Below are positions 5,962-29,806 of a stretch of DNA of 33,351 nucleotides, piece after piece. Every line of letters begins with the position of its first letter. Position 1 is the first letter of the stretch. Under the pieces are notes generated by a model. It was not told where the DNA came from. It ran no database searches and saw only the letters and a program-made list of their open reading frames with translations. Source of the DNA: a virus. The position numbers and the translations under genes were made by a program. The DNA lies in the IMG/VR virus record IMGVR_UViG_3300042691_001220, positions 1-33,351 of that record; one strand, 5' to 3'.

Positions 5962-8900
5962 ATGGCCGGTATTGCATCCATCGTAGACCCCAACTCCCTC
6001 GTTGCCCGGAAGTTCGCTACTGGCGGCACTGCGAAAAAGCCCACGACCATTAACCTATTTGGGCAGCAAATCACCCTCCCGGTTAGACCCGCGCCAACTC
6101 CGGTTAGACCCGCGCCAACTCCGGTTAGACCCGCGCCAACTCCGGTTAGACCCGCGCCAACTCCGGTTAGACCTGCGCCTACGCCCCCCGCGCCCGTTTT
6201 TCGAGGGTACGATTCTCTTGACGCATTGACCAACATTTCAAAAAGCGGCGGGTCCTTTTTGTTTACCGACCCCAAAACTGGGGCGCTTAATCCTGCGCTA
6301 CAAGCACAGCTAGACCAACAGAAAGTCGCAGCGGCCAGTTACGTCCCTAAAAATGGGGATATGCGGTATGGGTTTGTGCAGTTTGGAAAGGGGATGGCCC
6401 CCGATAAAGACAACCGTAGCTTCCAAGAAAAGTTTGCCAACACCCCCGGTGCGGGGCTTTGGTCGGCGGGGATTAACCCAGACGACCCCCAAGCTGAAGT
6501 TAAAGCAAAAGCTATGTTGGATAGGCTTTTGGCTAACAAAGATCCTAAATATAGTCAAAGCGTATGGGGGAACGGGGCATGGGGTCGAGACGACGCCAAA
6601 ATGCCGGGGATACGCCAAATCCTCGCCACAACCCCTAATATTAAAGCCACTGATTTAATTGATTACGCATGGCGTGCGCCCCAAGCGCAGAATGCCCTTC
6701 AGCCCCGCGATATTGGTGAAGACATTCTTGACATGGTTGCCGTTGTAGGTTTGACGTTAATGTCTGGCGGTAACCCAACGCTTGCGACGATGTATGGCGC
6801 GGCGCGGAACGGGGAAAAATCCGGCTCATTGTTAGGTGCTTTTGGAGGCGCACTACAAGCCTATTCTCTTGCTAGTGGGGTCGGTAGCTTAACTACCGCT
6901 ATTAATTCCGCTGGTGGAGTGGGTAACTTTATAACCTCTATTCCCGGCAAAATTTCAACCACAGTTAATAAAATTTTTGCCGAAGGCGCTAAGTTTACTG
7001 GCGCCCCGCTTACTTACACTAAAACGGCAATTGATAAATTAGTTGACACCGCTACAAATAAAGTCGTAGATACTGTTACTAGCGCAAAAGATTTTGTGCG
7101 TGATTTAGCAGAAGCTCCGGGCGAAACGCTTGGATCTCTTGTGGGTACTCCAAATACCGGAGGTATTACAAGTCTTTCAAATGTTTCACCGGATATTCCG
7201 ACTATCAATGTATCGGCTATTCGCCCCCAAGATCCATTTGGGGGGTCGCTTGGACTTTCTGGCGCTCCGTCATGGGTTTTGGGACATAATTTAGTTCCAG
7301 ACGAATTAATCCCCAAAGAAAACATCACTGATACTTCAACAAAAGAAGGTGGCGGTGGAACTCCGGGCGAAGGCACTGCGGGGAGTGGGCAAGTTTCGCA
7401 AGCTGGCGGTGGCGGTGGCGGTGGCGGAACCCCAAACACCGGGGGGGTCACAGAACTTCCAAACCCTAACGCCGGGGGGGTCACAGAACTTCCTAATATC
7501 GACGCTGGTGGCGCTACGACCCCCGGCGGGGTTACAAACCTCCCGAGTGCCGCTGACATTGCAAATGCGGGTGGCGCTACGACCCCCGGCGGGATTACTA
7601 CTCTTCCAAGTGGGACCCCAGAAATTGTCATAACAGCAAGTAGGGCTGCGGAAGATAATTGGCTTATAAACGCATTAAAAGTTTCGCCTAGTTGGATAGC
7701 AAGTCAACCTGCGGATGTAAAACATAAATTATATAACCAATTAAAAAATGAATATGGAACATTAGATCAGCCTAGAATGGACACAGATGCAAGGGGGAAC
7801 ACATACAGAGTACATGATTTAACTCGTCCCGAAGAAATTATGAAACCAGATACTATTGTAAATAGTAACGGGGATAGAGTAGTAATAGATTATTCTGGAA
7901 ATGGTATTAATCCTAATGCGTTGGAAATAACTACAATTGAATCTCCAACGCCAACCCCAATAACTACGCCGACCCCAATTACGACGCCGGGGCTTCCGGG
8001 ACTTTCTACTGCGGCAAGCCAGTATGTAAATTCGTTTGAACAAACTACTCCGGTAACCCCGCCGATAATCCCCACTGGCCCTGTTGGATCCGAACCGCTG
8101 ATTCCGACAGTGCCCCCCGTGACGCCCGTGGTTCCGCCTACGCCTCCCGTGGTTCCGCCTACGCCTCCCGTGGTTCCGCCTACGCCTCCCGTGGTTCCGC
8201 CTACGCTTCCCGTGGTTCCGCCTACGCCTCCCGTGGTTCCGCCTACGCCTCCCGTGGTTCCGCCTACGCCTCCCGTGGTTCCGCCTACGCCTCCCGTGGT
8301 TCCGCCTACGCCTCCCGTGGTTCCGCCTACGCCTCCCGTGGTTCCGCCTACGCCTCCCGTGGTTCCGCCTACGCCTCCCGTTGGTCCGGTTGGTCCAATT
8401 ACTATTTCACCGTACCCAGTAGGTCCAGTAGGTCCAGTAGGTCCGGTTGGTCCGGTTGGTCCTATTGGTACTGGCCCCGTTGGTCCAGTAGGTCCGGGCG
8501 GTCCGGGCGGCGGGGGAAGTGGTGGTGGGAATGGTGGCGGGGACGGCACGGGTGATGGCACGGGGAATGGGCCGGGGACCGGAGGTACGGTGCCGGATAT
8601 TAAAATCCCGGCTGTCAGTGCGCCAAGACCTTCTGGAACCGCTGGTAAAAGCCCTGCGTTTACGGACTCAGAGGTTACATACTTAGGACTGTCTAAACCG
8701 GGGGAATATAAGCCGGTAACATATCAAGGGATTTCATCCGTCATGCCCTCTAAAAATATGCCGTTCCCATTGATGGGTGCCCAACAACCTGCGGCTTCTG
8801 CGCCAGTAGATAATTCATGGATTAATATGCTTAACCCACAAATGCCAACAGACCCCAACGCCGCTGGGTTTTTTGATTTCGCAAATTTTGGGTTTGCTGC

Positions 8901-9264
8901 GGGCGGCGACATCAACTCCCAAGATCCTATGAACCCAATGGGCGGTGCGCCTGCGTCGCAATATGGCCTCGCAGGATTGATGCGTGGGGGGCCTGCAACA
9001 AACAAACCAGTTGAAGGCTACCTTGACGGCCCCGGCGATGGGATGAGTGATTCAATCAAAGCCACCATCGACGGGCAGCAACCCGCTCGGCTTGCAGATG
9101 GAGAGTTTGTTATCCCTGCGGATGTCGTAAGCCACCTTGGTAATGGTTCCAGCAAAGCTGGTGCTAAGGTACTGTATGCTATGATGGATCGCATCCGCCA
9201 TGCCCGCACAGGCAATCCTAAGCAGGGCAAAGAAATTAACCCCAAAAAATTCTTGCCCGTGTAA
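5962..9264 (+). CDS. Large Pro/Gly-repeat virion protein with conserved ARLADGEFVIPADVV tail domain (1100 aa)
   Basis: ATG at 5962 follows AGGAG by 6 nt. Visible parts in order: five PVRPAPT repeats (residues about 40-74); a globular region (about 80-250); a hydrophobic, amphipathic stretch (about 254-400, LDMVAVVGLTLMSGG then GALQAYSLASGVG); a Gly-rich zone with GGVTELPN repeats (about 455-555); a more AT-rich middle (about 555-660); twelve VVPPTPP repeats (about 723-806); a collagen-like PVG run; and a poly-Gly zone. The C-terminus (about 1023-1100, GPGDGMSDSIKATIDG then ARLADGEFVIPADVV) is a motif I recall from many environmental phage virion proteins. Likely an internal or ejected virion protein, perhaps with membrane-interacting segments. 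Its exact role is unknown. Confidence 0.62.
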   Translation: MAGIASIVDPNSLVARKFATGGTAKKPTTINLFGQQITLPVRPAPTPVRPAPTPVRPAPTPVRPAPTPVRPAPTPPAPVFRGYDSLDALTNISKSGGSFLFTDPKTGALNPALQAQLDQQKVAAASYVPKNGDMRYGFVQFGKGMAPDKDNRSFQEKFANTPGAGLWSAGINPDDPQAEVKAKAMLDRLLANKDPKYSQSVWGNGAWGRDDAKMPGIRQILATTPNIKATDLIDYAWRAPQAQNALQPRDIGEDILDMVAVVGLTLMSGGNPTLATMYGAARNGEKSGSLLGAFGGALQAYSLASGVGSLTTAINSAGGVGNFITSIPGKISTTVNKIFAEGAKFTGAPLTYTKTAIDKLVDTATNKVVDTVTSAKDFVRDLAEAPGETLGSLVGTPNTGGITSLSNVSPDIPTINVSAIRPQDPFGGSLGLSGAPSWVLGHNLVPDELIPKENITDTSTKEGGGGTPGEGTAGSGQVSQAGGGGGGGGTPNTGGVTELPNPNAGGVTELPNIDAGGATTPGGVTNLPSAADIANAGGATTPGGITTLPSGTPEIVITASRAAEDNWLINALKVSPSWIASQPADVKHKLYNQLKNEYGTLDQPRMDTDARGNTYRVHDLTRPEEIMKPDTIVNSNGDRVVIDYSGNGINPNALEITTIESPTPTPITTPTPITTPGLPGLSTAASQYVNSFEQTTPVTPPIIPTGPVGSEPLIPTVPPVTPVVPPTPPVVPPTPPVVPPTPPVVPPTLPVVPPTPPVVPPTPPVVPPTPPVVPPTPPVVPPTPPVVPPTPPVVPPTPPVVPPTPPVGPVGPITISPYPVGPVGPVGPVGPVGPIGTGPVGPVGPGGPGGGGSGGGNGGGDGTGDGTGNGPGTGGTVPDIKIPAVSAPRPSGTAGKSPAFTDSEVTYLGLSKPGEYKPVTYQGISSVMPSKNMPFPLMGAQQPAASAPVDNSWINMLNPQMPTDPNAAGFFDFANFGFAAGGDINSQDPMNPMGGAPASQYGLAGLMRGGPATNKPVEGYLDGPGDGMSDSIKATIDGQQPARLADGEFVIPADVVSHLGNGSSKAGAKVLYAMMDRIRHARTGNPKQGKEINPKKFLPV
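6079..6183 (+). repeat. Five tandem 21-nt repeats encoding PVRPAPT
   Basis: Units start at 6079, 6100, 6121, 6142 and 6163. The first four are identical at DNA level; the fifth differs at a few third positions. This implies recent duplication. Confidence 0.93.
8128..8379 (+). repeat. Twelve tandem 21-nt repeats encoding VVPPTPP
   Basis: Units of gtggttccgcctacgcctcc plus one c start every 21 nt from 8128. All are identical apart from the fourth, where one base change makes Pro a Leu. A PVG tract follows, built on repeated ggtccagta/ggtccggtt triplet groups to about 8500. The near-perfect identity points to recent expansion. Confidence 0.93.
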
Positions 9265-12488: not shown

Positions 12489-15400
12489 ATGCCTACTTTT
12501 TTGGTTAGTACCCCTACTGGGCGTCAATTTGAAGTAGATGGGGCTGATGAGAACGAAGCAATCAGCTCACTCCAAAATTACTTAAGTGGGGAAGCTGCGC
12601 CGCAACGGCGCACTAGACTTACCCCCGAGATGATCGATGCGTACCAGCAATCGCTGGGCGCACCCGCGCTTAACCAAAGTTCTATTTCTGACGAAGACTT
12701 AAAAAGTAAGTTAGCCGAGTACGAACACAAGCCGGGGTTCTTGGAAAGCCTTGGCAGTGGGGCGGAACGTAGTTTCTCTCAAGCCGCCGTACTCAAAGAC
12801 CAGCTACTCTCCTTGGGCGCGAAGGGTCTCGGTTACGACGACTACGCCAAGCAAAAGCTGGACGAGGCTGCTGCTAAACAAGAAGAAATCCAGCAGACCA
12901 ACCCCGCGCAGTTTGAGTCTTATAAAGACGTTAACTGGAGCAATTTGCCCGCTTACGCTGGAGAAAGCATCGGCGAGCAAGCATTCAACGCGCTCACAAT
13001 GTTGGGGTTTGGCGGGGTAGGCGGCGCTATCGGGAAGCGCGTTGTCACTTCAGCGGCGGAAAAAGCTGTGGCCGAGATGGCTGCACAGCGTGCGGCGGCA
13101 GGAGCGGCGGAAGCCGCAGTCCCTGCGGTAGAGCGACTCGTTGCCCGTGAAGCGGCCAAGGGTGCGGGGGTGGGCGGTAATATCGGGATGTACCTTGGGT
13201 CTTTTGGACTTAACGCCGGGGATACTTACCAAGGCATCTACGACAAGACGGGGGAAATGGCCCCCGGTGCGTCAGTAATCGGCGCTTCGATCAACGGCTT
13301 CCTCGACTCCATCGTCCCGGCGCGGTTCGTCAAAGCCCTGCGTGAGACCCCAACGCTCCGTGCAGAAGTTGCCGCTCGCATCGCTGCGGGCAAAGGCGTT
13401 GCAGAGGGTCTGCTCCCTGCGGTGAAAGCCGGGGCAATGGGTGCGCTCAAGGGCGGCGCGTTAGAACCTATCACGGAAGTGGGGCAGGAAATTGTCAATA
13501 AGCTCGCCGAGGACATTGTCGGCGAGTCGCAAGAGAAGTGGGGTTCCGAAGACTTCGACCGCTTTATCAACTCGGCTGCTAAATCCATCGCCCCCGGTAT
13601 GCTCTTTGGTTTTGGCGAAGGGGTAGGGAAGCAGTCAAACAGACGCGCCATTGCAGATCGACTAGAGCAGCAACAACAGGCTCGGCAGTTCGACGCCGAC
13701 CAGCTTGCCTCCGAGGAAGAACGCAAGCAGCAGTTGTACGAGGGGATCCCAGAGCTTGAGCAACAGGTCCAGATGCTGACTGAGGCGCTCAACCTACCAG
13801 AGAACCGCGCCCGTGCGGGGGAACTCAACTTCAACTTGCGGGAAACCCAGCAGCAACTGAACGACCTGTCGCAAGAACTTACCATCCTTGAGATGCCCCG
13901 CAATCAGCGGGCGCAGTTCTACGCTCAACAGCAGCAAGAAGAAGAAATCGCCCCGGAAGAGGAGGAAGCGCCGCCGACTGCGCCTGCGCCCGTTACGGCT
14001 AGAAGCGTGCTTGAGCCGCTGGGTGTTTCTGCGGAAGATATTAAGGGGCTGAACGTAAACCCCAACGCTCCGCTCCGTGGGAACGCCGCGCAACGAGTCG
14101 CAGACTTTATCGACCAGTGGCGGGTGAATCCCAATCTATCTCTTGAGCAAGCCCAAGCGGCGGATGCGGCACTTGCAGAACTCCCGGAACTCCAGTCGGA
14201 CGCCATCAGCGTAGGTCAAAGGGAAGACCGGGAAGCACACCTTGCTGCGGCTCCCGACCTTGTGCCTAAAAAGATGGAGAACTGGTACAAAGCCGCGCAA
14301 CAGCACGGGTTAACGCCCGAATCCCCAGACGCATGGCAGCAACTGTCTGATGCCCGCTATGCCGCTAGGAGCCCCTCAGTCCGTGCGGCGTTGACCGAGA
14401 AACTGAAGGCCGACTTCCCGGAACAGGAACAAGGGGAGGCCGACCGCGTTGCCGCGTTGACCGAACAGCAGCGGATGGCGGAGGAGCAAGCTAGAGCCGA
14501 GGCGGTGTTCAAGAAGGCGCAGGATGCGACGTACCGCAAACAGGTTAAGGACACCATCGCTAACTTCTTGGCAATAGCTAAGGAGCAACAGCGGAAACTG
14601 GAGGCGGCGCGGAAGCAAGCGGCGCAAGAAGGTAAGCTTAAGGCCGAGCAGGACGCGCAAGCGGGGACGCTGATCTCGGAGTTAGACAGGCACCTCAACT
14701 CCGACCTACCGGCGCTCACGCAGGCTCAGTTGGACGCCCCGGACAGCACCGCCGCTGCGGTCGCTTTGCGGCAGATGCGAGACACCATCGCCAAGAAACA
14801 GGAGGCGCTGAACAACTTAGCGCCCGTTGGGACCCGCCCGACCCCCCGCCCCGCGACTATTGCGCCGCCCAACATCACCGCTATGCAGACGGTCAGCGAT
14901 GTGCTGCGTCATGCTGGGTTCCCCGGCGCGGCCAAGCCTAACGGGATGCAGCCCAACGCACCGCTCCGTGGTGCCACGGCGGAGAAGTTAGCTAACTTCC
15001 TACAGCGTATTAAGCCCGAGTCGGTTAAGGATGTCGCTCAAGGTGAGCGCATTGACGCGCTCAAAGAACACCCAGCGTTCGCCTTGGAGGAGATTGAGCG
15101 GACCAAAGCGGAAGATCACCAAGCGCATATTGAGTCGGCAGCGGGGCTTAGAAGAAGCCGGGAAGCGTTCCAAGCATGGCAGACGCAACTGCGAGGCGAC
15201 TACAAGTTAGGGACCGATGCGGAAAAAGACCAAGCGGTCTACCGGGACCTGCGTACCGCACAGGGGGTCGCCCAAGACCATACGAAGAACCAGATTGAGA
15301 AATACATCTACAGCAGCCCCCCGCTGAAAAAGATTGCTGCGGAAGAGCAACAATCTGCGGGTCCGTTGGCGGAAGTCCGTGAGTCCCGTGCGGAGTCAAG

Positions 15401-18400
15401 GTCGGGAGCGGGGGCATTTTCAGAAGATGCGTTTCGTAAGGCAATGGGGGACGCGGTTAATTGGTCGGGGGATTACAAAACGCCCGGATATAAAAGCAAA
15501 GACAAATTAATTGAAATGCCAATTGCTGATTTTTTAACAATAGCGGACGATGGTTTTCAGCAAAAAAACTATGATGATGTTTTAGCTCTTTTTAGAAAAG
15601 GAATTAAATTTAATGCTATACCACAATTATCACTTTTTCGTGACAAAGATGGTAATATTAGAGGACAAGGGCATGAAGGAAGACACCGCGCTCGTGTTTT
15701 GAGAGATAACGGATACGATACGATTCCCGTCAAATTATTAACGGATATTCGTTGGTCTGAACAATCAGACCCTAAAAGTTTTGATTATTTGAAGAAGTGG
15801 CCGTCTAAAATCATATCTCAAGACGGCACCAAATCTATCCCTATGCTTGTTCCTCGCGAGCAGTCCATGACTCCGTGGAGTCCTTCAACGAAAATCCGTG
15901 AGTCCCGTGCGGGGAAAGTAACAAAAAATCGCACGCCGGAACTTCAAGCTGCTGCCGAAAAATTAAAGGCGGGGGAAATCACCCGTGAGGATTACGCCCG
16001 ACTTGTGAATAAATACAAGCCGGTAGTGCCGTATGAGCAAGTTCCGGCTCCAGCGTCCAACGCCGATATGGAACAAGCGTTAGACAAACCCAAAGTTCCA
16101 AAAATTAATGCCCCGCGTGGTATGGCTAATGGAACGCCGGTTAAACTCCGATTAGATATTCCTGCGTATGATAAACACAACACATGGATAGTAACTGTCC
16201 ATGAAGGGAATAAACCGGGGTTCAAAGCAGAAGCGGTTATTGGATACACCAGCACTGCGGCAGCTACTGATGTTACGTTTGGGTTAGAAACGGCGCAGGC
16301 TGGGTTAAATATCGCTGGGGGTAAACCGAAAGGCACTATTGCGACCATGAAGGGTAAGTGGCGCGACATGACTCCCGAGAAAGCAAAAGCTCGCGCTGAT
16401 GCTGCCATGAAAGACCCAGCTTGGCGTCAGATTGGTATGGATCCAGAACGTCATGGGTACTTCTATGACCGCGAAACAATGCAGCCGATTACCCGCGCTG
16501 ATGAAGTAATCCAGATTGGTCCGTTGGTTCTTGGGAAAAACGTCACCTACGGCAAACCGGACAATTTCCTATACTCCCGCGCTGCCGAAGGCTCCTCCAC
16601 CAAGCCGACACCGGAGCAGGTGCGTAAGGTTATCGAAGACCGGATGGGGGCCAGTGCGGCTAATGTCACCATCGCCCGCACGCCGAAAGAAGCTGGGGTA
16701 GATAACGTCAAGGGCATCCACCCGCTGACCAAGGGCGCGATCATCAACGGCAAGGCGTACCTGTTCACCGACAACATGCGTGTCGGTAAGGAATTTGGCG
16801 TGTTCCTGCATGAGGTCGGCGACCACCTCGGGATGAAGAAGCTAGTCGGCGAAGGGAACTACAACTTCCTTGTCTCGCAAGTTCAGAAGTGGGCCGACAA
16901 GAACGACGGATCGCTGGAGTCCAAGATTGCCCGTGCGGCTATGGAGCGCATCCCGCAGGGGACCAAGAAAGAAAGCGAATTGCTCGCCTACTTCATCGAA
17001 GAGGCGGTGGACAACTACGGGGTAAACCCGTCTGAGGTCCGAGACACTGCAACTCCGCTGGGGGCGTTCTTCCGCAAGATCATGGCGGGCATCAAGAACA
17101 TCCTCAACAAGTTGGGGCTGTCACCGAAAGATCTTACGTCGCAAGACATTATCGACCTTGCGTATGGCGCGGCGCAGTTGGAGTTGTCGGGGCAAGTTAA
17201 GGGTAAGGGCACCTCGCTCTCCCTATCAAGCGATAAGAACATCAGCCCGTTGGGGTTCTACAGCGCGTTGGAATACAACCTCTCACGCCTGCCGACCAAG
17301 TCGGCCACGGCGGCTGGCTGGAAGGACGCGATCAAGGGCCTGCTCAACAAGGGGCTAGTCAAAGCCGAAGAGGTCGAGTGGTCTGGCATCAACGACTGGC
17401 TCGATCTCACGGAAGGCAAGATCACCCGTGAGCAAGTGCAGGACTACCTAGCCCAAGGCGGCGTGCAGGTAGAAGAGACGGTACTGGGTAGAGCAAAAAA
17501 GAAAGATGATAAACCGTTAACTTGGGGAGAATGGTCGGAACCTGACGAAAATGGGCATAAAGAAATGAAAGCCTCTTCGGGGTCAAAAATTATTTACAAA
17601 CCAAAAAATTCAAACAGCGGACCGGGGACGCCGCTAAGAGACGACTATGTAGTTATAGACTCGAATGGTCGGCATCAAGGTACAGTAAATGATCTAGAAC
17701 ACGCTAAACAAATTACTTCAGCGTTTGAATCTAGCGCAGGGATGGGTGTAACTCCTACTAGATATAACCGTAATAATCTCGTTCTCCCCAACGGTAAAAA
17801 TTACCGAGAAGTATTGTTGACATTACCAAGTAAAAAAGTAAAAGGACGCAACTACGGACATTGGGAACAAAGTAATGTTTTAGCCCATACCCGCCTTAAT
17901 GACCGCGTCGATACAGACGGTAAGCGCGTGTTGTTTGTCGAAGAAGTTCAATCGGATTGGGGGCAAAAAGGTAAAAAAGAAGGTTTTGTTGTTTCACTTC
18001 CGCCGCTTAAAGAACTACCAAATGATGTAGTAGTTACAAAAAAATACAATGCTACAATAGACGAAGTTGAATATATTAAAGCCGAATTTACACGAATTAA
18101 TAGAATAATAACAAATTTATTTGATGCTGCGGATTTTAATCCCGAAAAACGTAAAAAATATAACGCTATTGTAGACGGAGAAAAAGGCGATAGATTCCTT
18201 GATCTTTCGCATAAATTTACAGATTTTAATTCCTATAACAGGATCGACCGAGTTCTAAATACGGTTCCTCATTCTGAGTTTTTAGAATGGCGTGAATTAA
18301 TTAGAGAAATAGTTCCTACTGCGTTTGAAACAGACCCTTATGAATCGAGACAGATATGGGTTGCAATCCAAAGTAATGCACGAATTGGTACAGGCGAAAC

Positions 18401-21400
18401 TAAAGAAGAAGCTAAAAAAGAGGCGCTTGACGTAATTAATGAAAATAGGAAATTTCCTGATGGGATTGCGTCCGCACCTTTTGTCACCAAGACCGAAGGC
18501 TGGGTGAACCTCGCACTTAAGCGCATAATGATCATGGCTGCGGAAGAAGGCTATGACAGCGTAGCTTTTTCTAACGGAAAGCAGAACGCAGATAGATACA
18601 ATTTAGCTAATCACGTTGAATCGATACAAGTACTTAAGGAAGGGGAAGGATATTACGTCACCCCCACCGATAAAGATGGGTATGAATTTCCTCCACAAGA
18701 AGCTAAAAACGCCGCAGAACTTGAGCGTATGGTCGGTGTAGAATTAGCAAAAAAAATTGTAAAAGATTTTAGTGGAAAACCCAATGATAGTTTTACCGCT
18801 ATGCAAAACGAAGATTTTGAAACTTATGCTGTTTATAATCAAAATTTAGAACAAATTGGCCCCAAATTTGATGATTACGATCAAGCCGCAGATTATGCAA
18901 AAGATCTTCTCGCTGGTAGAGTAGTTCCTCCTAGAGTGTACAGTGGTTTAGATTTGGACATTGGTGGTGAAGGCATGAAAACCTTCTATGACCAAATCAT
19001 TCCTTCTGCGTTGAAGAAGCTACTGCCAAAAGTTGATGGTGGAAAACTTCGTAATGTTAATATTGATTTTTCTGGGGATGCGTCTAATAACGAAGAATTG
19101 CCTTGGAACATTGCGGCTGTTCGCCGGATAATTCAAAGCGGTGGGGAAGTATACGCAGTTACGCATTATGGGTCTGAAGAACAAATTAGATCGGAACAAG
19201 ATTTAGAAGATATATTAGAATACGGAGAACCAAGAGGGTTTATATACGGCGATAAAGGAGAAACCCTTCCCCAACTCGGTTTCGACATTACCCCGGAGAT
19301 GGTGTCCAAGATCGAAGGGGGCTTGCCGCAGTTCTCCCGCGCCCCGGAAGTCCGTGAGTCCCGCGCTCCCGGCGTTGTAGTCAACCCGCGTGCGCCATCG
19401 CCCAGCGTCATAGGCAACGGCACCGCACAGGGTCGGCAGCAGCTTGCCGACTACGCCTACGGTCGTATGGATACCGTGATGCGGAACACCCCGCAGTGGG
19501 GTAAGGCGACGATGGGCAAGGCGCTGGGCGAGTTGAGCAACATGCCCACCAGCGCGAGAAAGTTTGTCTACTACGCGGCACAGCTTCCGCAGTTGGCCGA
19601 CATGATCGACAAGACCAGCCCCAGTGCAGCGGCCCGCATCCGGGATCTGGGGGAAGTCCTTGCTGCGCGGAAGACCCGTGCGGATAAACGGAAAGCGTTC
19701 ATCGAGAAAATCCTGCTTGACGGCAAAGCGGCAGTGGAGAAGTACACGCCCGCGCAGTTGGCTAAGTTTGAAGAAGTGACGCACAACCTGAGCCGGGAGC
19801 AGATTGATCCGTGGGATGCCGCTAACAAGACCCACCCGCTATCTCGACAATTCTATGCGTTGCCGAAACCGTTGCAGGACATTTTTAGCTCGGTGGTCGC
19901 GGCGTACCGGCAGTTTGGGGATGAGTACCTCGACCACATGGAGAAGATCGCGGGGCCTGCGTTCTCTCCTGCGATGAAGATGCAGTACAAGATGCGGATG
20001 AAGCGGATCATGCCGTACCTCCCGTTGTTCCGCGAAGGCGACTTCTGGGTGGCGTACACCGACAGAACTGGTGAGGCTGTGGTCCGGGCGTGTGATACCG
20101 ACCTTGAACGCAGTCAGGTGATGCGTGCAGCACAGGCGGCAGGGGCGACCGACATCCAGCCGTTCAAGCAATTGGCTGACATCAACCCCAACAACGTGAA
20201 GCCGACTCGGGAGTTCGCCCAGATTTTCAACCTGATGAAGGAAAAGGGAGTCGATGAGGCGGTGCAGGCTAAGGTCTACCAGACGCTCCTCCAGATGTTC
20301 CCGGCGAAGTCCATCATGCAGCAATTCCGCCCCCGTAAGGGGACGCTGGGTTACCGTGAGGACATCCTACGGAACTTCGCCATCGTGGGTTCCCGCATGG
20401 CCGACAACCTCACGCAGTTTGAGTTCACCAAAGACATCGACAACGTCTACAGCGACTTGGGCAAGGAACTGCTAAAGAGCGAGCGGTCCGGGGATGACGT
20501 TGCCGTTGACATGCTGAACGAACTGAAACAGCGGGAGAACTTCCTGCGGTATCCGGTGAACAGCAAGTACGCCAACCTCGCCGCGTCTGCCAGCTACAAC
20601 CAATTTTTGCTGGGTAATATTTCCTCGTCGGTGATGAACAGCACCAGCTTGGTGATGAGTACGTTGCCTGTTCTCGGCGGCGAGTACGGCTACGGTAGGA
20701 CCGCCGCTGCGATGTCGAGAGCGTTGAGCATGTACGCCAAGGGTGGCCGGGACGACAACACCTCACTCACTATCTTCGGTCGGCGGCTGTCCGACAAGAC
20801 CTTCATGGGCGACTCGGCTCGGGGCAAGGCGTTAGAGAAATCCCGTCCTGACCTCAAGAAGCTCTACGACACCGCAATATCCCGGCAGGCTATCCACCGT
20901 TCCGTGGGGCTTGAACTCCACGATATGAGGAAGATGGCGCTGTCGGAATACACCGGCTCGTGGATGAAAATCAAAACGCTCTTAAGCTGGTTGTTCCAAA
21001 ACTCGGAGCGGATGAACCGCGAAATTACTTTGCTTGCTGCGTATCAGTTAGAAATGGATGCGTTAGCGAAGCGCGGGATTCGCGGGGATGCGGCGACCAA
21101 TCAGGCGATTGATAAAGCCATCAAGGCGATCACGTTCACCCAAGGCGTTGCCACCCCGGAGCTTGGTTCTCGGGCGCTTCAAGGCAATATAGGCAAAGTC
21201 ATTGGTACGTTTAAGAAGTACCCCATGACCCAGCTTTACATGGTAGGCACGCTCTTCAACGATGCTATCCGGGGCGCAAGCGCCAAAGAAAAGCAGATCG
21301 CACAGAAACAGCTTCTGGGCATCATGGGTATGGGTTGGGCGTTTGCCGGGGTTAAGGGCCTGCCGCTCGTTGGCGGTATCTCATTTTTGGCCGAGATGAT

Positions 21401-22148
21401 TATCGGCGACGATGATGAGCCATTCGACATAGACCAGTGGGCGCTGGAGTCAATGGGCAATCTGGGGTGGAACGGTCTGGTCAGTGATATGACCGGCCTC
21501 CGCATCAGCGACCGTGCGGCTATCGGCTCGTTCTTCCGTGAGGATAAAAAGCGGCTGCAAGAGCTTGGGTGGCAGTGGTATCTCGCGGAGCAGACCATTG
21601 GTGCGCCTGCCAGTCTGGTGAAGAATTGGATCGACGCGAGCGAACTATTCCAGCAAGGCTACACTTTGAAAGCGGCGGAACGCGCCTTGCCCCTGTTCAT
21701 GAGCAACGCCATTAAAGCGGTTGATCAAGGCATCAACGGTATCGTCACCAAGGACGGCGTGCGTATTGCGGACGACCCGAGTACCAAGGACCTCATCATG
21801 CAGGGTATTGGGTTCCGAAAGGAATCGACTGCACGGGCGCAGGATGTCAACACTATCGAGAACCAAATCACCACAGCGGTTAACGCCCGCAGGACTCAGG
21901 TCCTCAATAACCTCTGGCGGTTCCGTAACGATCCTGAGCGGCTGGCAGAAGCCCGTGAAGCTAGGGACGACTTCAATCGCAGTCGGTACGGGCAGCTACC
22001 GAAAAACCGTATCACTGCCGAGACTATTGAGAAGTCCAAGAAGCAACACAAGGTGGTGGACAAAGCGGCGGCAGCGCACGCTGGTATGGCCCCGGACCAA
22101 AGGTACAAAGCCGCGTTCCGAGAGTTGGAAGAATCGGTGGACAGATAA
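12489..22148 (+). CDS. Giant polyvalent virion protein with ParB-like and zincin-like domains (3219 aa)
   Basis: ATG with GGAG upstream. Layout by residue: 1-55 beta N-terminus (FLVSTPTGRQFEVDGADENE); 75-370 Ala/Gly-rich hydrophobic virion-like part; 385-500 coiled coil; a duplicated domain at about 504-600 and 798-900 (shared NAPLRG); 975-1120 ParB-like, with GHEGRHRARVL near 1060; 1205-1375 a recurrent phage domain (GMDPERHGYFYDR, then ADEVIQIGPLVLGKN); 1375-1520 zincin-like with H1441-EVGD-H1446; 1590-1665 a small helical domain; 1750-2265 a recurrent polyvalent domain (NYREVLLTLP, FVEEVQSDWGQKGKKEG, GWVNLALKRIMIMAAEEG); 2300-3219 helical, with an LPD38-like zone at about 2830-2935 (tentative) and a hydrophobic patch at about 2940-2975. 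Such proteins are thought to be packaged and injected to counter host functions. Two blocks are AT-rich, unlike their flanks. Confidence 0.82.
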   Translation: MPTFLVSTPTGRQFEVDGADENEAISSLQNYLSGEAAPQRRTRLTPEMIDAYQQSLGAPALNQSSISDEDLKSKLAEYEHKPGFLESLGSGAERSFSQAAVLKDQLLSLGAKGLGYDDYAKQKLDEAAAKQEEIQQTNPAQFESYKDVNWSNLPAYAGESIGEQAFNALTMLGFGGVGGAIGKRVVTSAAEKAVAEMAAQRAAAGAAEAAVPAVERLVAREAAKGAGVGGNIGMYLGSFGLNAGDTYQGIYDKTGEMAPGASVIGASINGFLDSIVPARFVKALRETPTLRAEVAARIAAGKGVAEGLLPAVKAGAMGALKGGALEPITEVGQEIVNKLAEDIVGESQEKWGSEDFDRFINSAAKSIAPGMLFGFGEGVGKQSNRRAIADRLEQQQQARQFDADQLASEEERKQQLYEGIPELEQQVQMLTEALNLPENRARAGELNFNLRETQQQLNDLSQELTILEMPRNQRAQFYAQQQQEEEIAPEEEEAPPTAPAPVTARSVLEPLGVSAEDIKGLNVNPNAPLRGNAAQRVADFIDQWRVNPNLSLEQAQAADAALAELPELQSDAISVGQREDREAHLAAAPDLVPKKMENWYKAAQQHGLTPESPDAWQQLSDARYAARSPSVRAALTEKLKADFPEQEQGEADRVAALTEQQRMAEEQARAEAVFKKAQDATYRKQVKDTIANFLAIAKEQQRKLEAARKQAAQEGKLKAEQDAQAGTLISELDRHLNSDLPALTQAQLDAPDSTAAAVALRQMRDTIAKKQEALNNLAPVGTRPTPRPATIAPPNITAMQTVSDVLRHAGFPGAAKPNGMQPNAPLRGATAEKLANFLQRIKPESVKDVAQGERIDALKEHPAFALEEIERTKAEDHQAHIESAAGLRRSREAFQAWQTQLRGDYKLGTDAEKDQAVYRDLRTAQGVAQDHTKNQIEKYIYSSPPLKKIAAEEQQSAGPLAEVRESRAESRSGAGAFSEDAFRKAMGDAVNWSGDYKTPGYKSKDKLIEMPIADFLTIADDGFQQKNYDDVLALFRKGIKFNAIPQLSLFRDKDGNIRGQGHEGRHRARVLRDNGYDTIPVKLLTDIRWSEQSDPKSFDYLKKWPSKIISQDGTKSIPMLVPREQSMTPWSPSTKIRESRAGKVTKNRTPELQAAAEKLKAGEITREDYARLVNKYKPVVPYEQVPAPASNADMEQALDKPKVPKINAPRGMANGTPVKLRLDIPAYDKHNTWIVTVHEGNKPGFKAEAVIGYTSTAAATDVTFGLETAQAGLNIAGGKPKGTIATMKGKWRDMTPEKAKARADAAMKDPAWRQIGMDPERHGYFYDRETMQPITRADEVIQIGPLVLGKNVTYGKPDNFLYSRAAEGSSTKPTPEQVRKVIEDRMGASAANVTIARTPKEAGVDNVKGIHPLTKGAIINGKAYLFTDNMRVGKEFGVFLHEVGDHLGMKKLVGEGNYNFLVSQVQKWADKNDGSLESKIARAAMERIPQGTKKESELLAYFIEEAVDNYGVNPSEVRDTATPLGAFFRKIMAGIKNILNKLGLSPKDLTSQDIIDLAYGAAQLELSGQVKGKGTSLSLSSDKNISPLGFYSALEYNLSRLPTKSATAAGWKDAIKGLLNKGLVKAEEVEWSGINDWLDLTEGKITREQVQDYLAQGGVQVEETVLGRAKKKDDKPLTWGEWSEPDENGHKEMKASSGSKIIYKPKNSNSGPGTPLRDDYVVIDSNGRHQGTVNDLEHAKQITSAFESSAGMGVTPTRYNRNNLVLPNGKNYREVLLTLPSKKVKGRNYGHWEQSNVLAHTRLNDRVDTDGKRVLFVEEVQSDWGQKGKKEGFVVSLPPLKELPNDVVVTKKYNATIDEVEYIKAEFTRINRIITNLFDAADFNPEKRKKYNAIVDGEKGDRFLDLSHKFTDFNSYNRIDRVLNTVPHSEFLEWRELIREIVPTAFETDPYESRQIWVAIQSNARIGTGETKEEAKKEALDVINENRKFPDGIASAPFVTKTEGWVNLALKRIMIMAAEEGYDSVAFSNGKQNADRYNLANHVESIQVLKEGEGYYVTPTDKDGYEFPPQEAKNAAELERMVGVELAKKIVKDFSGKPNDSFTAMQNEDFETYAVYNQNLEQIGPKFDDYDQAADYAKDLLAGRVVPPRVYSGLDLDIGGEGMKTFYDQIIPSALKKLLPKVDGGKLRNVNIDFSGDASNNEELPWNIAAVRRIIQSGGEVYAVTHYGSEEQIRSEQDLEDILEYGEPRGFIYGDKGETLPQLGFDITPEMVSKIEGGLPQFSRAPEVRESRAPGVVVNPRAPSPSVIGNGTAQGRQQLADYAYGRMDTVMRNTPQWGKATMGKALGELSNMPTSARKFVYYAAQLPQLADMIDKTSPSAAARIRDLGEVLAARKTRADKRKAFIEKILLDGKAAVEKYTPAQLAKFEEVTHNLSREQIDPWDAANKTHPLSRQFYALPKPLQDIFSSVVAAYRQFGDEYLDHMEKIAGPAFSPAMKMQYKMRMKRIMPYLPLFREGDFWVAYTDRTGEAVVRACDTDLERSQVMRAAQAAGATDIQPFKQLADINPNNVKPTREFAQIFNLMKEKGVDEAVQAKVYQTLLQMFPAKSIMQQFRPRKGTLGYREDILRNFAIVGSRMADNLTQFEFTKDIDNVYSDLGKELLKSERSGDDVAVDMLNELKQRENFLRYPVNSKYANLAASASYNQFLLGNISSSVMNSTSLVMSTLPVLGGEYGYGRTAAAMSRALSMYAKGGRDDNTSLTIFGRRLSDKTFMGDSARGKALEKSRPDLKKLYDTAISRQAIHRSVGLELHDMRKMALSEYTGSWMKIKTLLSWLFQNSERMNREITLLAAYQLEMDALAKRGIRGDAATNQAIDKAIKAITFTQGVATPELGSRALQGNIGKVIGTFKKYPMTQLYMVGTLFNDAIRGASAKEKQIAQKQLLGIMGMGWAFAGVKGLPLVGGISFLAEMIIGDDDEPFDIDQWALESMGNLGWNGLVSDMTGLRISDRAAIGSFFREDKKRLQELGWQWYLAEQTIGAPASLVKNWIDASELFQQGYTLKAAERALPLFMSNAIKAVDQGINGIVTKDGVRIADDPSTKDLIMQGIGFRKESTARAQDVNTIENQITTAVNARRTQVLNNLWRFRNDPERLAEAREARDDFNRSRYGQLPKNRITAETIEKSKKQHKVVDKAAAAHAGMAPDQRYKAAFRELEESVDR
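14058..14975 (+). repeat. Diverged internal domain duplication in the giant protein
   Basis: Two copies are offset by 297 residues. Copy one (residues about 504-600) has NPNAPLRGNAAQRVADFIDQW, then EDREAHLAAAPDL and NWYKAAQ. Copy two (about 798-900) has QPNAPLRGATAEKLANFLQR, then EDHQAHIESAAGL and AFQAWQ. The anchors PNAPLRG and the (E)D-AH(L/I)-(A)A motif align in order. The coordinates span the two anchor motifs only. Confidence 0.7.
15376..15393 (+). repeat. RESRA linker repeat, copy 1
   Basis: tccgtgagtcccgtgcgg is identical to copy 2 at 15895-15912 and lies 519 nt (173 codons) upstream of it in the same frame. It encodes the RESRA linker just before the AT-rich ParB-like domain. Confidence 0.9.
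15394..15894 (+). other. AT-rich ParB-like domain block inside the giant gene
   Basis: By hand count, 15601-15660 is 15/60 G+C and 15541-15600 is 20/60, against 33/60 in the preceding stretch 15061-15120. The block encodes the ParB-like domain (IEMPIADFLTIADDGFQQKN, then GHEGRHRARVLRDNGYDTIP). Exact 18-nt repeats bound it on both sides. Acquisition as a unit is inference. Confidence 0.7.
15895..15912 (+). repeat. RESRA linker repeat, copy 2
   Basis: Exact 18-nt match to copy 1. It closes the ParB-like block and is followed by a helical KNRTPELQAAAEKLKAGEIT segment with mixed base composition. Confidence 0.9.
17490..19330 (+). other. AT-rich polyvalent-domain block inside the giant gene
   Basis: G+C falls sharply after about 17490 (18061-18120 is 13/60 by hand count) and recovers near 19270-19330 (19981-20040 is 35/60). 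The block encodes the recurrent YREVLLTLP / EEVQSDWGQ / ADRYNLANHVESI / GLDLDIGGEGMKTFYDQIIP polyvalent domain. A short GC-richer patch at about 18475-18560 lies inside it. The downstream border is the third RESRA repeat; no RESRA copy was found at the upstream border. Confidence 0.65.
19345..19363 (+). repeat. RESRA linker repeat, copy 3
   Basis: cggaagtccgtgagtcccg is identical over 19 nt to 15370-15388 (copy 1 and its upstream flank). It follows the AT-rich polyvalent block and a related QFSRAP motif, and precedes the GC-rich C-terminal third. Confidence 0.9.
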
Positions 22149-22232: not shown

Positions 22233-25022
22233 CTATCCCAAGTTAGGCAACAACCCCTCGATCCCAAAGAAGTCTTCTTTCTCAAACGTAAACTCGTGGA
22301 CCCGCACCGCCGGGGAGTCTGAGTTGGTCCCCTTGCCCATCCGCTTCTTGGTTTCACCGATATAAGTCCCCCGGTCCCGGAAGTCCTTCAGCAAATCCTT
22401 GGCGCTCACCTGCCGCTCCATGCAAAAATCTTTGAATGGTTTGGTGCCAATAAATATCCGCTTGGTATCCGGCTCGACCCGGACAAGTAGTTGTCGGCGC
22501 GGGGTTAGAATCGCCATTGGGGATAGGACCGACCGTCTGTCCATCACGGCGTTGATGACCAAGATGCTGTCTTGGTTAGCGTTCAAAAACTCACCAAGGA
22601 TGTCGGCGGAGTCTGGTACTGCCTCGTTCATGTCCCGGCGCAACGATGGAATCAAGCCATCTATCACCCAGTCCAGCACAGGCTTAGGCGCAATCCCGTG
22701 AAGGTCTAAACTATGGGACACCGTGCCGCCGACTAGGTTGGCTGCAATGGTCGCCGCCCAGTACCGCTCCTTGCTCACCAGCCGTGCCCGCTTGTCGATG
22801 TACTCCTGCATGGCGATCTGTTGGCGCTTGATGTCGTCTCGGGACTTCACCACATAGTCCATGTACAGCGGGCCAGCAACGCCGAAGTTATTGGCGAGCG
22901 TTACTTCAAACAACTGATACGCATCCGACTTGCTCATATTGTTGAGTGAGTCAATTTTGTACTCAATAAGTCGCATTAGTTCGCCGTTCGCTGTGGCTTT
23001 ACCAGAAGAGATTTTATCCGCGATAGAGGAGTTGGAAGTTGCCAGCGCGATGGTCGCCCATGTCGTGGTGTTCTTCCGCTCCATGTTCGACTGCGACTGC
23101 ATCCGCCCCGGACCCTGCCCCTGAGACACCGCGTAGGCCAGCTTAGACGCCACCTCGGGCTGGATGTTGGTTAGCTCATCCATTGTATAGGGCAGGTTGT
23201 TGAGTACGCCGAGGCGGTGGATCTTGTGGGCGTAGGTGTCGCCCTCGGTGGACAGGAGCTTGCTCGGGTGCCCGTAGACGCTGTTGACCATCCGCATGAT
23301 GGTCGTCTTCCCCGTGCCTGACTGCGCGTTGACCAGCGAGATCAAAGCGCCGTTGTACCCACTGAACTTCATCAGGGGCGCACCGAATGCGGTGAAGAAC
23401 GCAAAGGCAAACGCTTCCGCGCCGGGGCGGCTGTACGGCTCCACGACCCGCTTCCAATTGTCCAAGGTGCCACTGCTGTACAGCAAGGAGGATACCGATT
23501 CGGTTATTTCGGATGGCGGGCTGTACCGCGTCTCCGACACGCCGATCTCGTTGGTGCCTAAAATAAACTTGGTGTCGCCCTCGGCCCAGCCCATCTGGTT
23601 GTGTAGCACCTCGGTGTCGAGCATCACTTGCTGCTGCTTGGCGCACGAGATGAGATACCACATCAGCCTGCTCAGGGCGTCGCCCGCGCTCAAGACACCA
23701 TTGGCCGACAGCACCTTGCGTAGCTCGTCCTTGGAGGTCATAGCGGATAGCGGGATAACGAACTCCCGTGCCTTCTCCCTTGGTAGGTGCAGCCGTGCCA
23801 ACGCTAGGTCGCCCCGGATGGAGTCGGTCATGCGCTTGACGAGGTAGAGGGAATGCTCGTAGACCATTTCCGACTCGTCGTTGTTCTGGATGTAAATAGC
23901 GCCAGATTTGGCTCTGAAATATGGGCTAGGCAGCACCGGGATGTCGTACTCGACAGGACTGCCGCCCTCCTCGATCTCAACGATAACTTCCTCATCGCTC
24001 CCTTGAACCTCAATGCCGAGAACGATGGGACTCTTAATTTTCCCCTTGTGTGGGCACCGCTTGCACCCGCCGGGGTTGTGAAACTCTATGGTCTCGCACT
24101 TGTATGGCTTGTCCACCAAGTCTTCTGACTTCCGCACCGTCGCCTCAAAGCTATAGCCCGAGTGCTTGTCAGAGATAGCGTGGATGCCGATTTCAAAATC
24201 AACGCAGTTCCGGGCGATGGATAGCCCAGCCCGCCACAGGTTGTAGTCCAGCCCTTCCTGATTGGTCGCGATGTGTACCAACTGCTGGCACCCGTCGCCA
24301 CGGGACGAGCGATCCAGAATCAACGCGAACCGCTTTTGCTTGTCGTCAGACAGCGACTGCATCAATGGGCTCGGTCCCGCCTTCAGATAATCAGGCGGCT
24401 CAGACAGCAGCACCGTCACCCCGACACACTGCCGGATCTCATCTATCCCGGACGCCTCACCCTCAAACAGCACCCCCACAGGAACCGCAGGGTCGCGCTT
24501 GTAGTTGGACGTACCGGGGACCCGCAGGATGCGAGCGGCGTCGGCGGTGACTGAAGCGTCAGCGTGCAGCGCGTGTTCCTTGCACAGGGTCTTCAACCGC
24601 TCCGCGACCGGCTTCCACTCGGCCAAACGGATGGGGGCTTTTAACGCCCAATAAACATGGACCCCGTACCCGGAGGATACGATGGTCGGACTGGGTAATC
24701 CCGTCTTATCCAAGAAAGCCGCAAACGCTTCCAGCCCCGCAGTCTGGTCGGGGTAGTCCTTGGTCGGACCACAGTCGATGTCGAGGTAAAACGATTTGAG
24801 TACTTGGACGTTGATGGTCTTGCGACCAACCGCAGGATCTTCAAAGCTCGCACAAGCAAAATACGAGTTAAAATTCTCGGCGTCTAACTGAGATGATTTC
24901 TGAACAGCGTTGTCGATATTGTCGTAAAAATAGGTCTGGGGGTTATGGCCTGCTTTTAACCCCACTATGCAATACACCCCCTCCTCGGGGAGTACATGCG
25001 AGAGAAATTTCGTTGTGTCCAT
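22233..25022 (-). CDS. Primase-helicase: AEP-type primase plus P-loop helicase (929 aa)
   Basis: ATG at 25022 is preferred: AAGAGA lies 6 nt upstream and it avoids overlap with the HTH gene. An in-frame ATG ten codons upstream (25052) is possible. Numbering from 25022: the N-terminal primase-polymerase domain has FYLDIDCG (D81, D83), SGYGVHVYW (H122) and D161-AARILRVPGTSNYK, the three archaeo-eukaryotic primase motifs. A Cys/His cluster (C309, C320, C323, H325) follows in GGCKRCPHKGK. The C-terminal ATPase has Walker A NAQSGTGKTT (K572) and Walker B-like TMDELTN (D615, E616), as in DUF927/D5-type helicases. It should prime and unwind phage DNA. It is the last gene of the - strand unit, directly before the terminator. 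Confidence 0.85.
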   Translation of the reverse strand: MDTTKFLSHVLPEEGVYCIVGLKAGHNPQTYFYDNIDNAVQKSSQLDAENFNSYFACASFEDPAVGRKTINVQVLKSFYLDIDCGPTKDYPDQTAGLEAFAAFLDKTGLPSPTIVSSGYGVHVYWALKAPIRLAEWKPVAERLKTLCKEHALHADASVTADAARILRVPGTSNYKRDPAVPVGVLFEGEASGIDEIRQCVGVTVLLSEPPDYLKAGPSPLMQSLSDDKQKRFALILDRSSRGDGCQQLVHIATNQEGLDYNLWRAGLSIARNCVDFEIGIHAISDKHSGYSFEATVRKSEDLVDKPYKCETIEFHNPGGCKRCPHKGKIKSPIVLGIEVQGSDEEVIVEIEEGGSPVEYDIPVLPSPYFRAKSGAIYIQNNDESEMVYEHSLYLVKRMTDSIRGDLALARLHLPREKAREFVIPLSAMTSKDELRKVLSANGVLSAGDALSRLMWYLISCAKQQQVMLDTEVLHNQMGWAEGDTKFILGTNEIGVSETRYSPPSEITESVSSLLYSSGTLDNWKRVVEPYSRPGAEAFAFAFFTAFGAPLMKFSGYNGALISLVNAQSGTGKTTIMRMVNSVYGHPSKLLSTEGDTYAHKIHRLGVLNNLPYTMDELTNIQPEVASKLAYAVSQGQGPGRMQSQSNMERKNTTTWATIALATSNSSIADKISSGKATANGELMRLIEYKIDSLNNMSKSDAYQLFEVTLANNFGVAGPLYMDYVVKSRDDIKRQQIAMQEYIDKRARLVSKERYWAATIAANLVGGTVSHSLDLHGIAPKPVLDWVIDGLIPSLRRDMNEAVPDSADILGEFLNANQDSILVINAVMDRRSVLSPMAILTPRRQLLVRVEPDTKRIFIGTKPFKDFCMERQVSAKDLLKDFRDRGTYIGETKKRMGKGTNSDSPAVRVHEFTFEKEDFFGIEGLLPNLG

Positions 25023-25028
25023 GTAAAT

Positions 25029-25034
25029 TCTCTT
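25029..25034 (-). promoter_or_regulatory. Ribosome-binding site favouring the shorter primase start
   Basis: AAGAGA on the - strand overlaps the stop of the HTH gene and lies 6 nt before ATG at 25022. It supports this start over the ATG at 25052. Confidence 0.5.
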
Positions 25035-25272
25035 ACTGCGTCCATCCCCCACTCACCAATAGCGCAGTTATTTTTTCTCTGTAATGTTTTCTCGGTTCTA
25101 CTTTGCCGGTGAACCACTTGTATATCGTCATTTTGGAGACCCCAAAATACTCCGCCATATCAATGGCGGAGATGTCTCGGCTAATACAATACCGGCCCAA
25201 GAGAACACCGAGGCTATCAGACGCGGAGCGGTTCACCTCCACGATTCGCTGACTGTAACCTCGGTTGTCCAT
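25033..25272 (-). CDS. Small helix-turn-helix DNA-binding protein (79 aa)
   Basis: Start ATG overlaps the upstream stop by one nt (TAATG). After an N-terminal region (SQRIVEVNRSASDSLGVLLG), residues about 33-65 form a helix-turn-helix: ISAIDMAEYFGVSKMTIYKW, then FTGKVEPR, where MAEYFGVSKMTIYKW is the two-helix unit. It resembles the XRE/Cro fold, with a recognition helix and the usual WFTGK-type turn. It sits between the Cys-cluster protein and the primase in the replication operon. It could be a repressor of this or an opposing transcript, or a replication accessory protein that binds an origin. No operator was recognised. The HTH call is good; the role is unknown. Confidence 0.75.
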   Translation of the reverse strand: MDNRGYSQRIVEVNRSASDSLGVLLGRYCISRDISAIDMAEYFGVSKMTIYKWFTGKVEPRKHYREKITALLVSGGWTQ

Positions 25273-26177
25273 TACTCGTCGTCCACTTCCGTAGCGCGTT
25301 TCTTGTTGGCGAACTTCGCCAATACCGCGCTAACGTCAGGTTTCGCAGGCACCACATCGGCGGGCTTCTTCGCCTTGACCTTCGGCTCCTCATCCTCGTC
25401 CACCTCGCCGCCGTTGGCCTTGATGGCGTCCTTCAGCGACGGTAGTGCCTTCTGGCCCTTGTCGGCCTGATACACCGTCAGCGTCACCGCCAGCTTGGCC
25501 TCCGGGGACTGCCCAAACTCAATCAACTTGGGCATCGCTTCCCGTGACGGGAACCCAATCGGCGAGAAGAACATCTTCGGGGTGTCCGCGTCATCGTCGA
25601 ACGAGATGCGGGTGATCAAGCGGTCGATGCTGTGGTTCTGGCTCGCAACGTACTTGAAGTACTGCTGGTAAGGCATGTGGGCAATGTCGCCCTTGCCAAA
25701 CAGCGAGGTCGCGGGCAGTTCCAGCATGTGAACGCCGGAGTCCAGATCGTCCGCCAAGACCACCGCGATGCGCTGCTTGAACCGGCAGGCGCGGGTCGTG
25801 CCCTGACCACTGCCAGCGATGTTCATCGGGCAGTCGTTGCAGTTGCTGTGCTGCGGGTTCTCCACACTGGGGTGCGGGGCCTTGCTGTCAGCCGACCAGC
25901 AAGTCGGCGGCGCGGCATCCGCAGTCGGGTCGTAGGTCCCGGCGTAGTAGGTCCGGGAAACGTCCTTTGCCACGTTGACGATGACTACGTCAAGGGCGTC
26001 CTTCTTCTTCGCCACTTCCTCACCGTTGACGATCAGGCGGAACACCTTGCCCCGGATAGAGATGCGCTTGTTAGTGCCCCCCATCCTCTGCATCAGACCC
26101 TTGGTCAGTTCAGACTGGCCTTCACTACGGATGTAGTCGGGCACCATACCAGCATTAAACGGAATCATATCGCTCAT
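25272..26177 (-). CDS. Cys-cluster replication-associated protein, possibly ssDNA-binding (301 aa)
   Basis: ATG follows AAGGAG with good spacing. The N-terminal half is beta-rich (RISIRGKVFRLIVNGEEVAK, DALDVVIVNVAKDVSRTYYA). A probable metal-binding cluster follows: C93, H102, C113, C116 and C131 (NCNDCPMN and RACRFKQR). The middle (about 160-235) has HMPYQQYFKYVASQ and FFSPIGFPSR segments. The C-terminus (about 250-301) is an acidic, low-complexity tail with Lys-rich linkers, ending ATEVDDE. A beta-core plus an acidic tail is what ssDNA-binding proteins use to recruit partners. Similar proteins recur beside phage replication genes, usually unannotated. The SSB role is an inference. Confidence 0.6.
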   Translation of the reverse strand: MSDMIPFNAGMVPDYIRSEGQSELTKGLMQRMGGTNKRISIRGKVFRLIVNGEEVAKKKDALDVVIVNVAKDVSRTYYAGTYDPTADAAPPTCWSADSKAPHPSVENPQHSNCNDCPMNIAGSGQGTTRACRFKQRIAVVLADDLDSGVHMLELPATSLFGKGDIAHMPYQQYFKYVASQNHSIDRLITRISFDDDADTPKMFFSPIGFPSREAMPKLIEFGQSPEAKLAVTLTVYQADKGQKALPSLKDAIKANGGEVDEDEEPKVKAKKPADVVPAKPDVSAVLAKFANKKRATEVDDE

Positions 26178-26188
26178 CTTAAATCTCC

Positions 26189-26590: not shown

Positions 26591-26641
26591 GTTTTTACCT
26601 CGTGTTTGTTGTCGTGCGAATCGAATCTTAGGAAACTAAAT

Positions 26642-28201: not shown

Positions 28202-28206
28202 TTATT

Positions 28207-29794: not shown

Positions 29795-29806
29795 TTTTGT
29801 CCGCCT

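Follow-up and report, generated by a model that had tools for sequence, protein, structure and literature searches.

The window, i.e., the whole stretch of DNA that was analyzed, is a virus record of 33,351 bases. It carries a giant gene encoding a protein of 3219 aa, whose C-terminal third matches phrog_10089, a family annotated as 'DarB-like antirestriction' (E 7e-45). The giant genes of Bcep22-like phages (e.g., Parlo, PEp14 and Skulduggery) also match the C-terminal third of this protein, and a neighboring gene of the window (3440-5401) is similar to a family of virion structural proteins. No match was found when the DNA of the window was compared with annotated phages using blastn, and a Pfam search with the whole 3219-aa protein returned no domain. 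The features of the giant gene are the following (evidence in parentheses):

12489-22148, plus strand: gene of the giant polyvalent (DarB-like) protein, 3219 aa (open frame; phrog_10089 match; Bcep22-like matches)
15375-15392, plus strand: tag A, VRESRA, before the ParB-like block (repeat search, translation)
15396-15893, plus strand: ParB/sulfiredoxin-fold domain, AT-rich block 1, with GHEGRHRA at 15669 (homologues L366-L381; AlphaFold model; PDB neighbors)
15894-15911, plus strand: tag B, IRESRA, after the ParB-like block (repeat search, translation, model)
15912-16565, plus strand: uncharacterized region between tags B and C (translation; no Pfam match)
16566-16583, plus strand: tag C, FLYSRA, before the zincin domain (motif count, translation)
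16605-17198, plus strand: predicted zincin metallopeptidase, HEVGDH (HExxxH) at 16809-16826 (conservation in relatives; model)
17250-17453, plus strand: 'FYSAL' helical module, without a clear tag ahead (SLSSDKNISPLG)
17487-19331, plus strand: B2 domain, AT-rich block 2, ending ...ITPEM...GGLP (widespread mobile phage domain)
19326-19343, plus strand: tag D1, PQFSRA, the B2 domain's own end tag
19350-19367, plus strand: tag D2, VRESRA, directly after D1, with 19 nt in common with tag A
19368-22145, plus strand: C-terminal DarB-like region of PLxRFG type (phrog_10089, Bcep22-like giant genes)

A single 3219-aa ORF combines a ParB/Srx fold, a zincin-like domain, a B2 domain and a DarB-like C-terminus, and this combination places it among the polyvalent proteins. 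As far as the consulted text describes them, these proteins are likewise giant and multidomain, with a ParB/Srx-like domain, a HEXXXH zincin and a DarB-like C-terminus (Iyer et al. 2017; PMC5512222).

Short repeats are found at the borders of several of these domains. The sequence TCCGTGAGTCCCGTGCGG is an exact 18-nt repeat located at 15376-15393 and 15895-15912, on both sides of the ParB-like block, and CGGAAGTCCGTGAGTCCCG is an exact 19-nt repeat located at 15370-15388 and 19345-19363, whose second copy closes the second AT-rich block. Allowing up to three mismatches, we detected three repeat matches, relative to 0.02 expected from dinucleotide shuffles. All copies share the reading frame of the ORF 12489-22148 and encode the peptides VRESRA, IRESRA and VRESRA. 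Two related motifs occur in the giant protein: YSRA at 16572 and FSRA at 19332. Overall, [FYE]SRA is found five times in this protein (shuffle mean 0.18; maximum 3 in 3000), and these sites are placed at the ends of different domains. The repeats, their frame and the related motifs are thus as described by a sequence-only reading of this DNA, which had proposed that protein domains are exchanged as cassettes by homologous recombination at short linkers.

The two blocks present a GC-content of 0.41 (ParB-like block) and 0.39 (B2 block), and the flanks one of 0.57-0.61 (14400-15369, 16584-17486 and 19368-22145). GC3 goes down to 0.07-0.5 within the blocks, against values of mostly 0.7-0.9 in the GC-rich flanks. 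In addition, all five synonymous codons are identical between the RESRA copies of tags A and B (P ~0.001 under the codon use of the gene), which indicates that the similarity of these copies at the DNA level exceeds what the peptide needs. This codon identity and the exact 18-19 nt repeats count in favor of the interpretation that recombination takes place at the linker DNA and that homologous exchange of domain cassettes makes the linkers alike.

The ParB-like block was modeled with AlphaFold (pLDDT 78) and its closest neighbors among solved structures are sulfiredoxin, ParB, Noc, SbnI and Osa (Foldseek probability 0.8-1.0; best E 0.0019). The predicted fold therefore supports the assignment of block 1 to the ParB/sulfiredoxin fold. 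In this model, the RESRA of tag B corresponds to residues 168-172 and falls within a stretch (residues 166-179) with pLDDT <50, i.e., a predicted disordered linker. A further 16 viral contigs carry homologues of the ParB-like block, and the arginine-bearing motif GHEGRHRA is invariant. Each phage's tag, where known, precedes and follows its ParB-like homologue: the bracket reads SLRD or SLR in L371, L370, L374 and L375, ASEKRD in L369 and L151, and RESRA in the window; in L373, the bracket departs from the SLR/SLRD pattern on one side. The bracket is an exact DNA repeat of 34 nt in L151, 15 nt in L369 and 18 nt in the window, and the 34-nt sequence of L151 differs from the repeat of the window while enclosing the same ParB-like domain. 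In the phages with SLR tags, the two sides of the bracket agree as peptide but differ as DNA.

The comparison of two relatives indicates how such domains move. L302 presents the arrangement tag-ART-tag where L151 presents tag-ART-tag-ParB-tag-ART-tag, ART being the ADP-ribosyltransferase domain of polyvalent proteins (ART-PolyVal), and the next 707 aa are 79.5% identical. More generally, in 33% of the cases, the homology between related giant proteins stops no more than 8 aa away from a tag, versus 4% at random, a figure that partly restates the position of the tags at domain edges, since tags and edges coincide. The sequence-only reading had suggested a test for breakpoints at the repeats, and the part of its proposal that is supported is that the modules are exchangeable and that their borders are the linkers. 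The module borders at tags and the exact 34-nt bracket of L151 are also expected if the exchange is driven by linker DNA. However, the brackets that appear to be old share the peptide without the DNA.

The domain located at 16605-17198 is a predicted zincin, based on its HExxxH motif, its conservation and the fold order of its model. The H, E, H and G of the HEVGDH motif are nearly invariant in 35 relatives. The model presents a helix (residues 3-14), strands (21-24, 44-47 and 50-54), the HE helix (63-74) and a later helix with ESELLAYFIEE, so that the elements described for zincins are all present in this domain: a HEXXXH helix, an N-terminal helix, three strands and a downstream glutamate. 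A search of this domain against Pfam yielded no match, and the best match by fold in the PDB was the metallopeptidase MATCAP, which is not significant (E 0.42). Sequence matches of the zincin profile in the PDB were mostly designed helical proteins and were discarded as composition artefacts. Across giant proteins, HE..H or HE...H motifs were found in 170 of 208, relative to 8-9 for the reversed motifs.

We surveyed the tags in 287 groups of related phages and prophages. An initial count of the motif [hydrophobic]x[FY]S[RK] revealed only a ~1.5-2-fold enrichment, because the tag differs between phages. A within-protein test was therefore based on the 5-6 residues that follow two unrelated mobile domains, ART-PolyVal and B2, in the 34 proteins that carry both. 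ART-PolyVal ends with ...NPDI and the B2 relatives all end with ...GLP-x-F, each followed by differing residues. Within one protein, the residues that follow the two domains form pairs such as FSLN/FSLN, SLRD/SLRD, FQP/FQP, SADR/SPDR and A.GGSVDD/A.GGSVDD. The identity between the ART and B2 end tags was 2.22 of 5 residues within proteins versus 0.96 +/- 0.12 when the tags were re-paired (0 of 20000 permutations; z=10.6). The result was similar when a single protein was retained per unrelated backbone (n=9; identity 2.20 vs 0.95; mean z 5.4), where backbone components group the phages that are related in other genes; this definition replaced a 10-mer-sharing filter that left only 8 proteins. 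These permutation tests are independent of the tag classes used below, which were themselves defined after viewing the sequences.

Such tags might simply represent structural domain ends (a last strand and its cap) or effects of composition. The constant GLP-x-F ending of B2 suggests that the motif partly belongs to the fold, but the residues beyond the anchor vary from phage to phage and yet match between unrelated domains of the same protein. Moreover, the windows located just before or just after the ART and B2 tags presented no comparable within-protein match, and the RESRA linker is predicted to be disordered. We consider a purely structural or compositional origin to be highly improbable.

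We further compared the codons of the shared tag residues in the 34 proteins. The same codon was used for 69 of 140 residues, relative to 59.9 +/- 5.5 expected, and the two copies of a shared serine often belong to different codon families (TCN and AGY). Codon agreement is therefore little above chance, which indicates that the match between tags is maintained at the protein level. Together with the SLR brackets, which are alike as peptides only, this result weakens the view that shared linker DNA is the general cause of the likeness, and this part of the cassette-exchange proposal was not supported.

The tag class of a phage was then compared with the ancestry of its domains. For nearest relatives at 0.4-0.6 identity, the same tag class was observed in 54 of 134 cases for ART and 38 of 77 for B2, relative to 45 of 54 for the zincin; this comparison required a minimum overlap and involved no post hoc choice of zincin clusters. 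The domains LPD38 and FYSAL were weak predictors of tag class. Phages with several classed ART tags presented a single class in 26 of 27 cases, and the tag class of the phage itself is the commonest ahead of FYSAL and ART module starts in the well-sampled classes. In the window, no clear tag was found between the zincin and the FYSAL module. We then clustered the zincins without reference to the tags. All 40 groups with the TFLHE type (STFLHExGHFFLE) presented Q tags, and the HExxGHxG types were associated with [FY][SA][RK] tags in 20 of 24 groups and the LAVFGHE type with S..R tags in 7 of 8 groups (zincin type against tag class: chi 247 vs null 37 +/- 9). The zincin of the window (HEVGDH) clusters with those of phages whose tags are RYARR, RHARD and RFSRAPEA, plus some without a classed tag, and phages of the GG class are mostly devoid of a recognizable zincin.

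The location of the zincin varies among phages. In L157, L159 and L302, it is encoded in a neighboring giant ORF that bears the same tags, and L157 mostly presents S.ER where L302 presents S.DR, at many sites. The lineage tag is also used in a second neighboring giant protein in some phages.

A control revealed that other phage genes predict the tag class equally well (92% of 297 genes). Since ordinary genes are equally predictive, the link between zincin and tag partly reflects shared descent. Among phages whose other genes are unrelated, the same tag class was observed in 221 of 283 pairs (78%) with the same zincin versus 896 of 5017 (18%) with a different zincin, although 146 of the 221 matching pairs come from the TFLHE type alone, whose 33 phages represent two backbone components. 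The other zincin types cover more backbones in smaller numbers. As judged from these sequence comparisons, tag class tracks the phage lineage and the type of the resident zincin, not the ancestry of the moving domain.

Moved domains thus adopt the tag class of the recipient lineage, and this result, along with the near-chance agreement of codons, indicates that the linker acts chiefly as a signal in the protein. As for the short DNA repeats of the window, a recent insertion or duplication is their best explanation. Selection acting on a protein signal, with short repeats in the DNA that persist briefly after an insertion or a duplication, is the most economical account, and recombination at the linker DNA as the cause of the likeness appears unlikely.

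Alternatively, the tags could be docking or export signals for head packaging or ejection, one per domain, read by another phage protein and left uncleaved. The tags are indeed a property of the lineage that is matched to other phage genes, the DarB protein of P1 has known capsid localization signals (PMC9024508), and some last domains also bear the tag, leaving a tail of 17-58 aa. However, a signal after every domain would be redundant in a single polypeptide, and the link with the zincin across unrelated backbones would lack an obvious reason. Such a role seems improbable to us.

What was observed is that the tags end unrelated domains, that each lineage presents one tag, that the tags are alike at the protein level and that variable domains lie between them. 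This pattern is as would be expected of cognate sites: there are several per protein, at the borders of unrelated domains, with a sequence that depends on the lineage, in a predicted disordered linker (tag B) and with a match to the peptidase. On the basis of these sequence patterns, we consider it fairly probable that the tags are cognate processing sites of the resident peptidase and that domains are exchanged as tag-bounded modules. The peptidase that each phage encodes would then recognize or cleave its interdomain tags; in the window, this enzyme would be the HEVGDH zincin (16605-17198), sited between tags C and D. Cutting, which may take place around the time of packaging or injection, would release the ParB, B2 and zincin domains and other pieces from the giant protein. 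To be released, a domain that has just been acquired would need to gain the resident tag at its ends; recent gains would leave a short exact DNA repeat, as for the ParB block of the window and in L151, and old gains would keep the peptide alone. Another phage protease could be the cutting enzyme, since other genes predict the tag class too. Further points against this interpretation are the lack of a clear tag ahead of the FYSAL module of the window, the tags borne by some last domains and the scarcity of recognizable zincins in phages of the GG class. Finally, the virion RNA polymerase of N4 constitutes a counter-case: it carries a zincin motif, yet it is reported to be packaged unprocessed (PMC5512222).

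The embedded zincins of polyvalent proteins have been predicted to release the domains of these proteins, which were likened to the polyproteins of RNA viruses (Iyer et al. 2017; PMC5512222). The same article indicates that DdrB and DarA of phage P1 are proteolytically processed and that DdrB combines a ParB-like domain with a zincin at its C-terminus. P1 DdrB, DarB and DarA are also comparable as antirestriction or defence proteins packaged in the virion. In contrast, cleavage sites, lineage tags and the link with zincin type are absent from the consulted text of this article; in its main text, 'linker' does not appear and 'cleavage site' appears in the reference list alone. Among the papers covered by our literature search, no earlier description of the tags as sites was found. 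Relative to this source, as far as it was consulted, zincin processing of polyvalent proteins is already a prediction, and the matching tags of each lineage and their link with zincin type constitute the new part.

The polyproteins of eukaryotic RNA viruses are similarly single polypeptides with short border sites that are repeated and specific to their own protease. In the giant protein family, we likewise found sites that match at several of the domain borders within a protein, and these sites co-vary with the encoded protease, with shared lineage as a caveat. The systems differ in that the present candidate enzyme is a zincin and not a chymotrypsin- or papain-like protease, the phages have dsDNA, the domains are shuffled and non-homologous, and cleavage is inferred here. 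Polymorphic toxin cassettes also exchange domains in frame at a fixed border, but mainly C-terminal toxin domains are swapped in those systems, whereas the domains are internal here and bounded on both sides by the same peptide.

We lean slightly toward a broader view, in which polyvalent phage proteins would be plug-in polyproteins with one zincin type and one tag per lineage (SRA/FSR, LFQ, SLRD, S-x-E/D-R and others), acquired domains would be re-tagged to the resident code, and many independent zincin-site pairs would exist. If the tags are sites, the domain borders of giant proteins would be readable from their sequence, and domains of unknown function could be excised correctly for testing. 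The released pieces of the injected phage arsenal would form a list that can be checked by mass spectrometry, and the tags would constitute a large natural collection of protease-site pairs. They would also offer a general view of how phage proteins gain new domains.

The window was found to contain the following features besides the tagged domains of the giant polyvalent gene:

1-316 and 6079-6183: units of 66 nt and 21 nt, repeated in tandem within genes upstream of the giant gene
8047-8515: tandem array of about 12 units of 21 nt, then 9-nt units, within the ORF 5962-9264
17250-17453, plus strand: helical FYSAL module with no clear tag in front, whereas most relatives have one
22233-32234, minus strand: gene block following a strand change after the giant gene

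The 9-nt units of the array are GTPVGP-like, and the minus-strand block contains DUF927/primase-helicase-like, SNF2 helicase, family A DNA polymerase and 2OG-Fe(II) oxygenase genes.

Among the related loci, a Cupriavidus pampae contig (L070) encodes 13 ART-PolyVal domains, nearly every one followed by R-[FY]-[SAR]-R. Loci of the GG class (L017, L021, L251 and others) present A-x-GG or F-x-x-GG at domain ends, often in proteins that are shorter and lack a recognisable zincin. The Q-class tags, ILFQ-P and LFQ-G at loci including L282 and L005, resemble viral 3C-type protease sites; however, the encoded peptidase is zincin-like in appearance.

Three phages (L157, L159 and L302) each carry two neighbouring giant polyvalent genes. 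Because both genes of a pair share the same tag class but only the upstream one presents the zincin motif, it is possible that processing occurs in trans between them. Finally, many tag sites read S-x-E-R in L157 but S-x-D-R in the related phage L302, a difference that resembles a concerted switch of the code by one residue.
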